A stretch of DNA of 64,000 bases from Solicoccozyma terricola (taxonomy: Eukaryota > Basidiomycota > Tremellomycetes > Filobasidiales > Piskurozymaceae). Below the pieces are notes generated by a model that had not been told where the DNA came from, made no database searches, and was given only the letters and a program-made list of their open reading frames with translations. Where the stretch lies: positions 47,944 to 111,943 of the forward strand of contig BCLD01000013.1 of assembly GCA_001600875.1 (NCBI GenBank), written 5' to 3'. Below, piece after piece: positions 2,490 to 11,283 of the stretch. The position numbers and the translations under genes were made by a program. Numbering within the stretch: the stretch's first letter is position 1; every line of letters begins with the position of its first letter.

Positions 2490-3553
2490 TCATATCTTGT
2501 GAGCAAAACAAATGCTACAATACCCACTACAAAAATCCTCCCGACAAACCCAATCACGGCAAGGACTCGAAGCATGACCAGTCTCGCAAAACATTGTGCC
2601 GCATCCTGGAAAGTAACAGACCCCTCCCCTTTCACCGGTCGATTGCTGCACGTCGTATCTACCTTTTCAACCCAGGTCGAGGGAATCAGGAGCAGAGGGT
2701 TGTCCGAGGTAAAGAGAACTCACAGCATTTGCTTGCTTGGTGTTTGAGGGCATGAACGTCGGGGGTGGTTGCGGCTACATAGGTTGCGGGGATGTCCTGG
2801 GCTATTAGGAAAAAAACGAACGTTCAACCGTAATTTCACCCAATTACAACACCGAGGCAACTCGACTCACCTTGTATGCGATATGGTGGTCCTTCATAAG
2901 CCCCGCTTTCTGATTCAAGCCCTGTGTGACAGTGACACCTTTGTCAGTGGGAGTGGGACTGGGACCGAAACTATCAGTGCTGAAAACTCTCACCTGCAGC
3001 TCCTGTCACCAGTTGACAACAAGTTTAATGCATGTGTACAAGAGCATTATTGGCTTGGTTGCCCGAGTTCTCACCTTCCGTAGAGTACCACTGCTGACTA
3101 CCATCCCGTTCTGTAGCTAAGGAGTCTGCAAAGCCAAAGCATGACTGTCAATCTGATGCATCAAGTATCCCTCTTTACAACATCCACTTACAAGGCAGAT
3201 CCAAAGATGTGGAAGGGGGGTTGCGGTTTGTGGAGGCGCTCCAAGTACCAGGTCCTATGCTGTCTTCATATGATGGTGGGGCTTCCCCCAGGCGAAAGCG
3301 GTGATGTCACCTACGTGTCACTCCGACGTTGAGAAGGGAGATTATTTGACTAGTCACTTACGAGTTTGCTCGCCCGGCTCAGGGGTTGCGCTTTCTCGAC
3401 CGTCTATTGGGGAAAGTTGGGTCTGGCATAAGTCTAGTTGTGTGTTCACAATACAGGGCCGCCAACTCTTCACGGCGAAATAGGTTGATACGGAAATCAC
3501 CACGACGTGAACTTACCGGTGCTGGTAGACGACGACTCTTCAAAGGAAGGCAT
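2490..3553 (-). CDS. Tandem cysteine-rich family, copy D (unknown function)
   Basis: I do not recognise this gene. A consistent spliced model has eight exons: 3517-3553, 3362-3403, 3192-3254, 3075-3125, 2994-3002 (9 nt), 2871-2921, 2724-2801 and 2662-2490, giving 167 aa with every intron in phase 1. The N-terminal 110 residues are Ser/Thr/Pro-rich and look disordered. The last exon encodes a cysteine module containing CYFPGCGTMFC, a central H, then PCRDWVC and FCSGYCSIC. The spacing is C-x4-C-x4-C-x8-C-x4-C-x4-C-x3-C-x2-C, suggestive of metal binding. The final intron ends in AAAAG, as in copies A-C. No signal peptide is visible. The acceptor of exon 3 is uncertain because at least three AGs keep the frame. 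A TATA box lies about 75 nt before the ATG. Confidence 0.6.
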
Positions 3554-3626
3554 GATGTTTGGCTTGCGTATTTGGATGGAGGATATATGGTCATCGATCT
3601 TGATCCAACAATCCTTTGGTTCACTC

Positions 3627-3632
3627 TTTATA
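3627..3632 (-). promoter_or_regulatory. TATA box of copy D
   Basis: TATAAA preceded by GGGG on the minus strand, 74 nt upstream of the ATG at 3553. Similar G-run plus TATAA elements precede copies A, B and C at 74-116 nt from their starts. Confidence 0.55.
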
Positions 3633-3813
3633 CCCCTGTTTGGAAACGGAGTTTCAACTGACTCCCTGATATCACCCTGTAGCACCAAAAACGCTTCAAA
3701 GGAACAAATACGGATGATGTGCTGACCGCGTTTGGTAGGGTGCAGTAGGGCAGACTGAAAGGTTTTCTTGCACGCATGTCAAATGACCCAGTTACACATT
3801 TTTGCGGTCCAAA

Positions 3814-4508
3814 TCATGTCTTGCGCTCGTGAGTTTTGCAGTGTTTGCAAGACCGACAGTTCTCCTTACACCACTCGCAATCACCCCACTCGTGCTCGTT
3901 ATATGTTTTACATGACTCCTGGCCGCAACCACTACTGCACTTTTCCCCCGCAGATGTGTATAGACCTATACCCCGGAGCAAGACTGTCAAATTTCTGGCA
4001 AGAAAAACATAATGTTACTCACATGGTCCTTTATGCCCTTCTGCAGTTGGAATCGTCGCAGAAATTGTTGGGGTGATGGTGCCTGTCCTTGCTGTTCAAA
4101 TTAATTATGGATATCAAGGCCGATCAGCTTTCAGAAAAGTAACTTGCCTCTTACGATGGATGGAGGGGATGTGGCTTCACAATGTAGAGCATTTGAGTCA
4201 ACTGTTTACCGCAGGACTGATTTCAAAAGTCACTCACGATTTGGTTCTGAAGTTATCGTTACCTCGAAAAGCACATGGATCTCCGGACGACCTGTTGAAA
4301 TATATTATAAACATCATGGCAACAGCTCTCAATCAGACAACTTGCCTTCCTTAGGAGGTGTCTCTGTAGGAATTCATGTGATGGGATGTCGACAGTGTCA
4401 GTGCCGTGGAACGGACGGATATGGAGTCGTTCGCCACCACTCTAACATACGTGAGCTGGAACGGCTGAAACTGTTCGTCGGGCAGAGTGAAGCGGGGGAG
4501 ACAGACAT
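3814..4508 (-). CDS. Tandem cysteine-rich family, copy C (unknown function)
   Basis: A paralogue of its neighbours, function unknown. The model has six exons: 4451-4508, 4346-4363 (18 nt), 4238-4291, 4155-4201, 4023-4091 and 3939-3814, giving 123 aa. The intron after exon 2 starts with GC (GCAAGT), as does the matching intron of copy A. The final exon encodes a compact cysteine module beginning HCSSGCGQESC, then HEWGDCEWC and NCRSCKHC; the spacing from the second Cys is C-x4-C-x10-C-x2-C-x3-C-x2-C-x2-C. The start context AAACATCATG is identical to that of copy D. Exon 4 shares the block GCTCTACATTGTG with exon 5 of copy A but reads it in another frame, so either the N-terminal half has diverged by frame change or this exon is mis-modelled. 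It is the shortest and most divergent copy. Confidence 0.55.
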
Positions 4509-4585
4509 GATGTTTGGTATTTGAATTGAGGTTATGTGGTCTGTCTGAATTCGCTTCATCGACTCTTTCTCAACATTCGTCTCCC

Positions 4586-4591
4586 TTTATA
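4586..4591 (-). promoter_or_regulatory. TATA box of copy C
   Basis: GCGGGTATAAAGG on the minus strand, 78 nt before the ATG at 4508. It matches the elements before the other copies in sequence and spacing. Confidence 0.55.
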
Positions 4592-5014
4592 CCCGCAGCT
4601 TATCATCCAAAAGTCGGAGCTCCAACTTTCCACTCCTGCGATCACCCCAAAGGACCCAACGCCCAACTTGGAACTTCTCAATAATGCAAGTCCGCCCTGT
4701 GTTATCCCGAAGCGCCGTAAAACCGCCATGTATGTCGTAGAGATTCCCTGCCGAAACCGGGTTGCTGACCCGAAAGTAAAGCTGTATTATCATCACATGG
4801 CTACTTTGCCTCGTCGTACCGCCATCTCTGTGATCCGGCGAGACCACGATAATTGCGAGACTGCGGGCGGGACTTTTGCCACTTTAAGTGTCGCCCAAGG
4901 CAAGAGGGAGCATGATACCTTAAGTTCTCTATTTCACTCGCTGATATGTGATACTGCAATGGGAGAGAGTATTGACATTCCGCAATTCCCCTCAGCCACT
5001 TGATATTTCTCCAG

Positions 5015-6074
5015 TCAAGGCACGATCATACCAAATAGCCCATGAACATTGCACCGTCGACAACGCGTGTGAATTCGCGCATCGTTACAATACCATTCAT
5101 CGCAATTCCCCCAAATATGAAAGCCATCTGTACAATACTTCAAAGTGCAGCCCAACTGGCAATCTTCCTCCGTAGGGTAAAGACCTTTTTCACACCGGAC
5201 CACAACATTTAACGCTTGTCTGGAAGAGGCAAAGTAGTGCATCCATCACTCACAGTGCCCATCATGCTGCCCAGTCACTGTAGCTGCTTGAGATCCTCCC
5301 TCGGTGGATGCATTGCCGTCGTGAAGGGGGTCTGTTTGATATTTGAATGTTTATAGCTATGTTTCATATACAGCTCTTGCATGGACCGCTTACCTTGAGG
5401 ATCTCTTTCTGTTAATAATAATTAAATGCCATACAACATCCATGGACATGAGGGTGAGAGAATTTGGGGCTTTGCTTTACAAGTCACTCACGTCCATGCT
5501 GTTGATCTTGATACATAATAGCAGTATTAGTCGGATTGTCAGCTAAATATTTAGCAGCACTGGCGCTCGGCAGGAACAACTCGCCTTCTTCGATTAAAGT
5601 GATCGCATCATCATCCCAAACATCCCCCGGTATCTCTACGTGTGACCAGGAAATGCAGACCTTCATAAGTCATTTAACCTTGACAGGTTTGAAAGCAGCA
5701 ACTTACGTTGGGTCCCAACTGCAAAAAGGACCATGCTGGCTTCTACAATCTCATATTACAGAACCTCAGAATCACCCTTCACACTCACTCACCTTCAAGG
5801 GTTCCAACTTCATAGGAGTTGTTGGCTGTATCTGTTTAGGTAATATTTGCTTGAAGCCATGAGCCCGAAGCCTTGGCAACACCGAATGTTCTGAGATGAC
5901 TCACCTCCAGGCGAAGCCGGTTGGCTCTCTACATCTCCGTTTGTGTGTGTAGTGATCCCATCTGTTCGATACCGTATCGTAGGAAAATATATTAAAGATC
6001 GTGGCAACACGGGACGCTTCCACAGACAACTCACCTTCCTCTGTGTTGGTGTGATAGTCTGTGCGCCCGGACAT
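5015..6074 (-). CDS. Tandem cysteine-rich family, copy B (unknown function)
   Basis: Eight exons: 6035-6074, 5905-5961, 5793-5831, 5707-5742, 5492-5635, 5394-5408 (15 nt), 5254-5331 and 5184-5015. They give a 192-aa protein with all introns in phase 1. The N-terminus (MSGRTDYHTNTEE) and the acidic, low-complexity middle resemble copy A exon by exon, and the introns between exons 2-3 and 3-4 still align with those of copy A. The last exon encodes CLYPTEEDCQLGC, then FHIWGNCDEWYC and HTRCRRCN. The cysteine spacing is C-x7-C-x3-C-x4-C-x9-C-x4-C-x9-C-x2-C. No signal peptide or membrane segment is seen, so a cytosolic or nuclear zinc-binding protein is more likely than a secreted one; this is inference. 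TGA is at 5015-5017. A TATA box sits 90 nt before the ATG. Confidence 0.62.
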
Positions 6075-6980
6075 GCTACGGAAAGCGGATTTGAATTAGG
6101 TGGTTTGGTGATTGATGGAGTGACAAGTACGAGCGGCGTCACTCGAGGAATTCCCGCCGACACTTTATACCCAAGGTTGGCAGCACAAGAAAGATTTCCG
6201 GAATCCAACATTCGTACCCCGCTCTCCATCTCCTTTCACCAACGCGCTTGAATATGATGATTCTGACGTGAGGTATGCGGAAAGCCTCATAGGGCACCCT
6301 TTCCACATTTGGAGAGAACCAAACTGAGATGCTGCTTCCAAAATCCTGCGCTTCAAATCGTCCCATCGTTCCCTCTGGTTCCCGCAGAAAGCGGACGAGC
6401 TACCTTACCGGCGAGATGGCGAGTCCAGCTGTAGCACTATCATGCTCACACAAACGCTAAGCCACAGCTACAGTCTCCGAGTCCCAGCACCGGCGACTCC
6501 TAGATCGTACTTGGAGAGGACGCAATACCTATTACGTTTTGTGCCTGGGTGGCGGTTTCAAATCATGCGTGACAAGAGGCAAATCATATCATTCATGCAA
6601 ATAACCAGTCAGTTTACCGTCTCGGACAGCACTGGAGGTGGAACTGGAAGGAAAGACATTCTTTTGATCCCAGTGATCACCCTCTCTGACTTGGTCAAGT
6701 AAAACGAATAAGAGAAACGAATAAGAGGAGGGACACAGCAGCGGCAAAGCTCAACTCAGACGTGTCTTGTTTGGGGCAGCTCTGTAATAAGGTGGATTCA
6801 CCTGAGGCTTGACTTTCAATCATCCAAATCACACTTCACTGCAACTTATTGACACTTTTTACTATCCATACGACCTGGGACTGCTGATATTTGCCAAGTC
6901 CTAACACCAATTCTCCACTCCCTTGCCCACCGGGAGGAACAAGTAGTGACGGCCGACTGCCTAGCAAACCATATGACTTG
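6075..6980. other. Spacer between tandem copies A and B
   Basis: About 900 bp holding the 3' flank of copy A and the promoter of copy B. I see no complete further copy of the cysteine module here. A decayed remnant cannot be excluded. Confidence 0.4.
6164..6169 (-). promoter_or_regulatory. TATA box of copy B
   Basis: TTGGGTATAAAG on the minus strand, 90 nt before the ATG at 6074. Copy A has the close match TTGGGTATAAG. Confidence 0.55.
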
Positions 6981-7957
6981 CTAGGCATTGCATTTTTCAC
7001 AGTTGCGGTGCGCCGGGCGGCCTCCACACCCTAATTCGCACGGCTTCCATAAGTGTCCGCTATCGCGAACGTCTTGTACTTGTACACAGACATGGTTAGT
7101 GCACGCGGTCTCCCGGATGCATTTGCTTCCTGGCTCAGCGGGGTAGTCGCCTTTTGCCCCAGAACACTGCGGAGTCAGCCCATTGTCAGAGAGCTGGCAA
7201 ATTCCACTCACAGTGTCCCACATGCTCAGTTCGATTTGGACCACTGCCCGCTACGTAGATGCCCGGGTCGACCGCCAACCGCTCCAAAACGCCACTCGCT
7301 ATTTTCAAAATAAATCAGTCAGTTTGAAGGGGTGATTGCAGCTCCCCCTCCCCCCCCCCAGGGCACCCCCACTCCCGGCGGGAGAACTCACGTGGAACTC
7401 TTCCTGATATTATTCCAAGGTAGGTACAGTCAGTGCAAGGGGAATTGAGGGCTTCAAAATTCATTTCCATACCATCATGATTTAGCTCCCGGTCAATTAC
7501 ATCGCTAAATACTGTCCTTCCCACAATGTAGAGCAGAACTATTTAGTTGACGTTGACATGTGAGAAAGCAACAAACTTACGTTCGGTCCCTTCTGCAGAA
7601 TGGGCCACACTAGCTTCTATAATCACACAATACACAACTCTTAGAATCACCCTCTTTACAAGTCCAAATAACTCACCTTGAGATGGTTCGTTCTCAGAGT
7701 TGAAGCTTGTGCCTGTATAGGTGATATTTTTGTATGAGACATAAGCCAAGTGACCTGGCAACACCGAAGGTTCCGAGACAACTCGCCTTGGCCTTCGTCT
7801 TCGCTTGGGGGTCGGGTGTTGGAGTCATTCGTAGTACCTAACAAACACATGGATGCGTGAGGGTGAGTGTGAGGAGAAATTGGTGGCGGGTCGCAATTTC
7901 TGGGAACTCACCCTCTGTACCTTGAAAGGTGGAGTCATAGCAATCGCCTCTCGACAT
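6981..7957 (-). CDS. Tandem cysteine-rich family, copy A (unknown function)
   Basis: Seven exons: 7912-7957, 7787-7837, 7677-7712, 7581-7616, 7392-7538, 7212-7298 and 7150-6981, giving 190 aa, all introns phase 1. The intron after exon 2 has a GC donor (GCGAGT). Exon 4 matches exon 4 of copy B at 27 of 36 bases, and both are exactly 36 nt; the last exons of A and B are both 170 nt. The C-terminal module starts CDYPAEPGSKC and continues through ACTNHVC, GHLWKPCELGC and NCEKCN. The spacing is C-x9-C-x5-C-x4-C-x15-C-x3-C-x8-C-x2-C. The last intron must use the AAAAG acceptor at 7151, because the stronger-looking CGCAG upstream would break the frame; the same choice is forced in copy B. Function unknown. 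Confidence 0.62.
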
Positions 7958-8072: not shown

Positions 8073-8078
8073 CTTATA
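8073..8078 (-). promoter_or_regulatory. TATA-like box of copy A
   Basis: TTGGGTATAAGAG on the minus strand, 116 nt before the ATG at 7957. It shares the TTGGGTATAA core with copy B. Confidence 0.5.
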
Positions 8079-8898
8079 CCCAATGGGATGGCAGTTTTCA
8101 AAAGATCACCCAAACGACCCCAAAAAAAACCAAAAAAGAAGCCAAAAAAAAAAAAAAGCGGAATTTCCAGATCTAATATTGATCTCAAAGGAAGATACTA
8201 TACAACCTGAAAAAAAGTCTCAGTGATTCCTAATCAAGCGCCCCCCCGCCCTTCTCTCCAGACTTGAACCTGCGGGTCCTGCGGGTTCTGCATTGATTTG
8301 ATAAAAGGGAGTCCGAGTTCCCGGCAAATACAACATGCTTTCCCGGGGGTGGCTGCGCATTTTTCAACTCATCCACCTCGTCTCACTCTGTTCCCCTTTG
8401 TTAATCCAACTTGAGCGCGGAGAAGGAAGAGTGCGAAGTGTGTGTTACCTATTTGCAATTGCCATGGGAGGGTGCATAGATTCCCCCCCACCCCTGGTGT
8501 GTGTGTGTGTGGCGACACTGACATAATCCAGTCACGTGGTGGCGGGTGGCGGGTGGCGGTGGGATGGGTTGATTTCAAGACAATGGCGCGTCCAAGTGGG
8601 ATAGTAGGATAGTAAGGAGAAGAGTGGGTGGGGAGTAGGGGGTGGGGGGGGATGGGTAGGGAGTGGTAGTCAGTAGATGGTACTACGAGTACATTGGCAT
8701 GGTGAAGGGGATGGAGGAAGTGGTGGGGTACGGGGGGGTACGGGGGGGGATTACAATGCGCCAACTGCTGAAACTTGGTTGAAACAGGTCGCGCTCGAAC
8801 CTTTTTGTTAAACAAAGGGGGAACGGACACGATCCCTTTCAACGGATAGAAGGGATGGTGATGGTGGGGGGATGGGGGGGGTAGACATCCATCCACAA

Positions 8899-8920: not shown

Positions 8921-11283
<2,363 letters not shown>

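Follow-up and report, generated by a model that had tools for sequence, protein, structure and literature searches.

The 64-kb window analysed here (64,000 nucleotides from the fungus Solicoccozyma terricola, C13:47944-111943, in a genome of 23.9 Mb and 33 contigs) contains four genes, here called A, B, C and D, that lie head to tail on the minus strand at C13:50433-55900. Each is predicted to consist of many small exons separated by phase-1 introns, with a cysteine-rich module in the last exon, and each is preceded by the same TATA-type element. This array is a real, compact and unusual gene family. We tentatively read A-D, with a confidence that stops a little short of even, as a local tandem family of intracellular zinc-module adaptors with variable tails, which would act in a fast-changing interaction and be driven by a regulated promoter. 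An initial annotation, made from the letters alone, had described four head-to-tail genes on this strand, and all four were recovered as complete models with the same ends (window coordinates; aa, amino acids):

6981-7957, minus strand: gene A, 7 exons (7957-7912, 7837-7787, 7712-7677, 7616-7581, 7538-7392, 7298-7212, 7150-6981), 190 aa; phase 1 in 6/6 introns, 5/6 recovered exactly by the chain scan described below
5015-6074, minus strand: gene B, 8 exons (6074-6035, 5961-5905, 5831-5793, 5742-5707, 5635-5492, 5408-5394, 5331-5254, 5184-5015), 192 aa; phase 1 in 7/7 introns, 6/7 recovered exactly
3814-4508, minus strand: gene C, 6 exons (4508-4451, 4363-4346, 4291-4238, 4201-4148, 4091-4023, 3965-3814), 134 aa; phase 1 in 5/5 introns, 3/5 recovered exactly
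2490-3553, minus strand: gene D, 8 exons (3553-3517, 3403-3362, 3281-3192, 3125-3075, 3002-2994, 2921-2871, 2801-2724, 2662-2490), 176 aa; phase 1 in 7/7 introns, 4/7 recovered exactly; exons 2-3 are the least sure

All four predicted models are open from ATG to stop, with introns of 36-113 bases and internal exons of 9-147 bases. Phase 1 was found in 25/25 introns, and every exon but the first of each gene begins at codon position 2 (25 exons: 21 internal and 4 terminal). In the neighbouring MAP kinase, WD40 and mL41 genes, spliced in the same way (WD40 in part only), phase 1 accounts for 5/16 introns. The many small exons and mostly phase-1 introns of the initial annotation are thus borne out in the models. 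Donors are GT in 22 cases and GC in three, and acceptors are YAG in 21 and AAG in four. The GC donors belong to introns 7786-7713, 4345-4292 and 4147-4092; none of the 16 neighbour introns has one. A 15-base exon is present in B and absent in A, and D has a 9-base exon. The last donor reads T/GTGAGT (the slash marks the exon end) and the last exon starts with GY in all four genes, which means that the last intron interrupts the codon for the module's first cysteine. A 14-base identity connects exon 5 of A (7538-7392) with exon 4 of C (4201-4148), in different frames in the models; the boundaries of C exon 4 may need revision.

Since the splice sites were picked by eye from the minus-strand reading, controls were needed. 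A phase-blind scan sought chains of at least four consecutive introns of one phase, with short open exons of lengths divisible by three and strong splice sites, AAG acceptors being excluded. It was run on both strands of the window and its flanks (230,388 readable bases), leaving out three largely masked stretches (L009, L013 and L020). Five chains were found: each of the four genes has one in phase 1, and a phase-0 chain overlaps D. Within these ~230 kb, then, runs of at least four same-phase short exons are confined to the array; in three first-order Markov copies of this sequence a single four-intron chain turned up, in phase 2. The four phase-1 chains contain 18 of the 25 modelled introns exactly and add five that were not modelled (one in B, one in C and three in D, one of which starts upstream of D's ATG). 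A crude phase-free gene model, based on the codon usage of the window, put phase 1 in 7/9, 7/8, 3/6 and 5/8 introns of A-D respectively, or 22/31 in total. The exon plan, although predicted from sequence alone, is well supported.

In the window the TATA-type element is confined to the array. The string GGGTATAA has four occurrences there, one ahead of each gene and none elsewhere (0.83 expected; none of 100 shuffles reached four):

8074-8081, minus strand: TATA-type element before A
6165-6172, minus strand: TATA-type element before B
4587-4594, minus strand: TATA-type element before C
3628-3635, minus strand: TATA-type element before D

Its TATA lies 79-121 bases ahead of each start; a longer form, GGGTATAARRG, matches two of the four sites only. 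In A and B the start is the first ATG past the element, and in C and D the earlier ATGs are at most 40 bases from it, so that an overlooked exon for a signal peptide would hardly fit in. Tandem order, the shared element, the similar exon plan and the shared split of the cysteine codon all agree with the earlier proposal that the array grew by duplication of whole genes.

The last exons encode the module (lengths include the split cysteine):

6981-7150, minus strand: module of A, 56 aa
5015-5184, minus strand: module of B, 56 aa
3814-3965, minus strand: module of C, 50 aa
2490-2662, minus strand: module of D, 57 aa

Aligned, these have the invariant columns C, Y, C, C, C, H, C, C, C, C. Each module holds eight or nine cysteines and one invariant histidine, with the spacing C-x(7-14)-C-x(3-5)-C-x4-C-x(8-15)-C-x(2-4)-C followed by a variable part ending in C-x2-C; the histidine stands five residues ahead of the fifth cysteine. 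The initial annotation had found the module in all four genes but had missed its eighth conserved cysteine, the one that the last intron splits. Are the four modules homologous? Their alignments score above those of full shuffles in 6/6 pairs (p 0.045 or less) and, when non-cysteine residues only are shuffled, in 5/6 (p 0.034 or less); the A-D pair is not above these cysteine-kept shuffles (p 0.23). A leave-one-out profile ranked B first among open reading frames outside the training set (expectation value, E, 2.6e-4). These alignments demonstrate homology for most pairs. A scan for comparable last exons (split cysteine after AG, 35-85 residues to the stop, at least 8 cysteines) in 237,853 readable bases returned 11 rows, four of which are the modules. 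The other seven, at five places, were judged by eye to be unrelated.

The module probably binds zinc, a prediction that draws on its cysteine and histidine content and on the lack of an apparent signal peptide (by hydropathy only). AlphaFold models from four-row alignments were unusable (predicted local distance difference test scores of 50.4 and 44.5). No known family was recognised in the first description of the array, and the database searches that follow gave the same answer. The four modules matched no Pfam family at an E limit of 10 (HMMER filters drop most rows above 0.1). The full-length proteins had no accepted Pfam family, the sole row being one for B at E 0.075, whose 13.6 bits fall below the cut-off of 21, and no other ligase domain was found in them by Pfam. 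There was no match in NCBIfam or PADLOC. Searches of viral contigs (queries B and D) and prokaryotic contigs (query B) confirmed no relatives. The family is not described in the titles or abstracts of the literature found, which does not prove it unpublished.

Could the modules be distant members of a known zinc domain, such as the IBR/RING2 of RBR ligases, the CCHC knuckle or the C2H2 finger? The string C-x4-C-x(n)-H-x4-C resembles a CCHC knuckle and half of an IBR, and IBR/RING2 has in common with the module a cysteine-dense spacing that includes H-x4-C. Among PDB sequences, D aligns weakly with the C2H2 fingers of YY1 (E 0.0025) and ZIC3 (E 0.0039), both scores being sums of weak pieces, and with the RBR ligase RNF31 (E 0.8-0.87). 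However, rows for the profile, for A (one) and for B (three) were at chance level and C had none, and, as noted above, no Pfam family was matched. Moreover, RING, PHD, MYND and C2H2 fingers begin with a C-x2(-4)-C zinc pair. This first pair, in which IBR/RING2 also differs from the module, is absent in all four modules, where the first cysteine spacing is 7-14 residues. Membership of a known zinc domain, which would be compatible with the other readings discussed here, is doubtful.

The earlier claim that cysteines are kept while the rest drifts is supported. In the module the proportion of nonsynonymous differences (pN, 0.40-0.49) is below that of synonymous differences (pS, 0.65-0.97) in 6/6 pairs, with synonymous divergence (dS) near or beyond saturation in five of the six. 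For the 24 codons of tail exons 3-4 in the A/B pair, pN is 0.35 and pS 0.40, values that point to little constraint and no clear positive selection. On these counts the module is constrained and tail exons 3-4 barely so.

The four copies are at different stages of divergence, and between A and B part of the DNA still aligns:

7547-7788, minus strand: tract of A from intron 2 to intron 4, aligning to B 5906-5674 with 71% DNA identity

Introns 2-4 are alike between the two genes (z-scores 10.1, 4.8 and 4.7), as are exons 3 and 4 (2.4 and 8.1) and the stretch from the promoter to exon 1 (4.1 and 4.9). Exons 2 and 5 show no likeness beyond that of shuffles (1.0 and 0.1). Exon 6, intron 6 and the last exon of A show weak DNA likeness to their B counterparts (2.2, 1.5 and 1.9); exon 6 and intron 6 of B, absent from A, were omitted from the comparison. 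Identity in introns (124/164) exceeds that in all A/B exons 2-5 (122/255; p 1.7e-8), though for exons 2 and 5 homology is uncertain. Introns, it would seem, can outlast exons in this array, a mosaic that would also fit patchy conversion or drift. B intron 1 aligns with C intron 2. As to whether the introns are introners or otherwise transposable, the tract of A from intron 2 to intron 4 matches only A and B genome-wide, and the remaining introns have a few short matches in the window and its flanks, at E 0.004 or worse. Several non-corresponding intron pairs, out of 300 pairs tested, also beat 300 shuffles, so weak intron likeness alone proves little.

The tails consist of 60-67% S, T, P, G, Q, N, E, D and K, a composition that suggests disorder. 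Those of A, B and D are acidic (charge -15, -21 and -11); that of C has a charge of -1. By hydropathy, A, B and D have no hydrophobic N terminus (among residues 1-40, the highest mean over 11 residues is -0.72 to -0.78).

How might such genes work? Each gene, from its own TATA-type promoter, would give a soluble intracellular protein of 134-192 aa. Symmetric mini-exons, each beginning at codon position 2, would encode its tail, and its module would fold around two zinc ions to form the constant binding part. Because any internal exon can be removed without breaking the frame, exons could be gained, lost or skipped with no frame shift and the tail would be free to vary. The most likely use would be as an intracellular adaptor, under a regulated promoter, in an interaction that changes fast, whether the partner is a parasite, a mobile element or another fungus; a role in conflict or recognition is plausible. 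The compartment, exon turnover as the cause of change, and the role are, together with zinc, what we infer.

Several observations weigh against this adaptor reading. The last, tail-to-module intron as modelled is absent from the scanned chains in all four genes. This is because three of the four last introns have AAG acceptors, which the scan disallowed, and because in C the scan chose another acceptor; an AAG acceptor in three of four last introns is itself unfavourable. The crude phase-free model missed the module in C and D and trimmed it in A and B. Both results count against the exact 3' models, in favour of which speak the shared T/GY split and the homology of the modules. The heavy DNA divergence and the modules missed in C and D could also mean that the array is decaying or non-coding, made up of old, unexpressed gene copies. 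But four open models, the excess of pS over pN in the module in every pair and a promoter element kept in 4/4 genes are not what decay would leave, and we give this explanation very little credence.

Leave-one-out profiles gave D first but weakly (E 0.07) and A second behind a chance open reading frame (E 0.14), and C was not among the seven best rows. Eight aligned cysteines and one histidine, moreover, do not split neatly into two four-ligand zinc sites. Finally, C has a mildly hydrophobic stretch (mean 1.37). Small size, eight or nine cysteines, fast divergence and a tandem array 50-56 kb from a telomere-like end are also features that secreted, disulfide-bonded cysteine-rich effectors would show. 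Against secretion stand the hydropathy of A, B and D, the position of C's stretch at residues 30-40 and the scant room that the TATA element leaves for an upstream signal exon, and secreted effectors are highly improbable.

The intron comparison raises a further difficulty for the adaptor reading. Introns 1, 5 and 6 of A and B are no longer alike (z-scores 0.9, 0.1 and 1.5), so the earlier claim that introns align between the two genes stands for introns 2-4 and fails, in DNA likeness, for the others. Over the tract that can be aligned, identity in introns (124/164) is not significantly different from that in exons 3-4 (47/72; Fisher p 0.11). With three introns diverged and exon 4 conserved like an intron, exon-specific acceleration is not demonstrated. 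A rival account is that A-D are a plain lineage-specific orphan, a zinc-finger-like gene duplicated three times whose tail drifts with no arms race and whose phase-1 introns were inherited from one ancestor. It would explain why A/B introns 1, 5 and 6 diverged as much as exons and why pN is close to pS in exons 3-4, as weak constraint would give; and four copies of one exon plan represent few independent events. It does less well with A/B exons 2 and 5, which cannot be aligned while introns 2-4 can; if these exons are homologous, their change would exceed drift at the intron rate. We consider orphan drift quite possible, though not probable.

Does the genome hold further copies? In protein searches of the genome each module matched itself only. 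Since even sister copies were missed, these searches say little about distant relatives, and more copies are possible. Three genome-wide patterns returned 32, 47 and 31 rows, compared with 30, 28 and 19 for reversed-pattern controls. Of these 110 rows four are known copies (B twice, C and D); the other 106 fall at 102 places. The 20 best-looking places were read; among the remaining 82, an in-frame stop interrupts the match in 26, and the other 56 were read. A core rule that all four known modules obey, C-x4-C-x(3-11)-H, held at none of the 56 (one of which, L074, is partly masked) and at one of the 20. This place, L038 (C20:111439-111374), is a cysteine-dense open frame with a family-like cysteine-dense end. 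It was taken as chance: it has no profile match up to E 20, its phase-1 chains are of two introns at most, GGGTATAA does not occur within 2.6 kb, and its alignment exceeds shuffles with C only (p 0.03, or 0.07 with cysteines kept in place). L024 (C9:469987) has the best profile score of the 76 (E 0.0087) but was selected by pattern and is without the C-x4-C block, and the L022 row, when read, was judged chance. A module profile run on the ~230 kb around the array found only A-D, with weaker rows from E 0.49. No further copy was confirmed by these insensitive searches, and because modules of the A type fall outside the patterns, four copies is a lower bound.

The array is ~50-56 kb from a telomere-like contig end: telomere-type CCCTAA repeats open contig C13 (bases 1-34). 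It is flanked by two genes, which together with the partly spliced WD40 protein gene served as neighbours for the comparison of intron phase:

8921-11283, plus strand: complete 12-exon gene for a FUS3-like MAP kinase, next to the array on its upstream side and in divergent orientation
2240-1493, minus strand: gene immediately following copy D on the downstream side; its product falls in the Pfam MRP-L27 family, and we take it to be the mitochondrial ribosomal protein mL41

The closest described plan is that of the aphid bicycle genes. These have small internal exons that almost all start at codon position 2, and their proteins diverge fast while gene structure is conserved (PMC9168663). One aphid species has 476 related genes, with a minimum of 5 exons and a mean of ~17; many of the proteins have two CYC motifs, and expression is in the salivary gland (PMC9168663). 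A-D share the start at codon position 2 (25/25 exons) but, unlike the aphid genes, are found in a fungus, are known in four copies and show no apparent signal peptide. Their 6-8 exons per gene lie between the bicycle minimum and the bicycle mean. The C-Y-C motif is absent from the four models. As neither CYC motifs nor signs of secretion were found, the bicycle genes offer a parallel and not a family to which A-D belong. A second parallel is segment switching in snake three-finger toxin genes, in which the introns of paralogs are alike and exon segments differ while cysteine positions are kept (PMC2474615). The toxins have a known disulfide fold, whereas in A-D the survival of introns over exons is clear only in introns 2-4 of A and B and the module is probably intracellular. 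We think it unlikely that A-D are a full fungal counterpart of the bicycle plan, in which the uniformly phase-1 mini-exons of a fast-evolving, local family would be frame-safe cassettes for a variable tail, attached to a constant and structurally new 8-Cys/His zinc module in intracellular conflict or recognition.

The initial annotation was accurate in outline as a description, and its interpretation is partly supported. What emerges is a bicycle-like plan in a fungus with a compact genome, where it is combined with a constant cysteine module that may be an undescribed zinc fold. If expressed, the array would be a tractable small case in which to ask whether symmetric mini-exons speed protein innovation.

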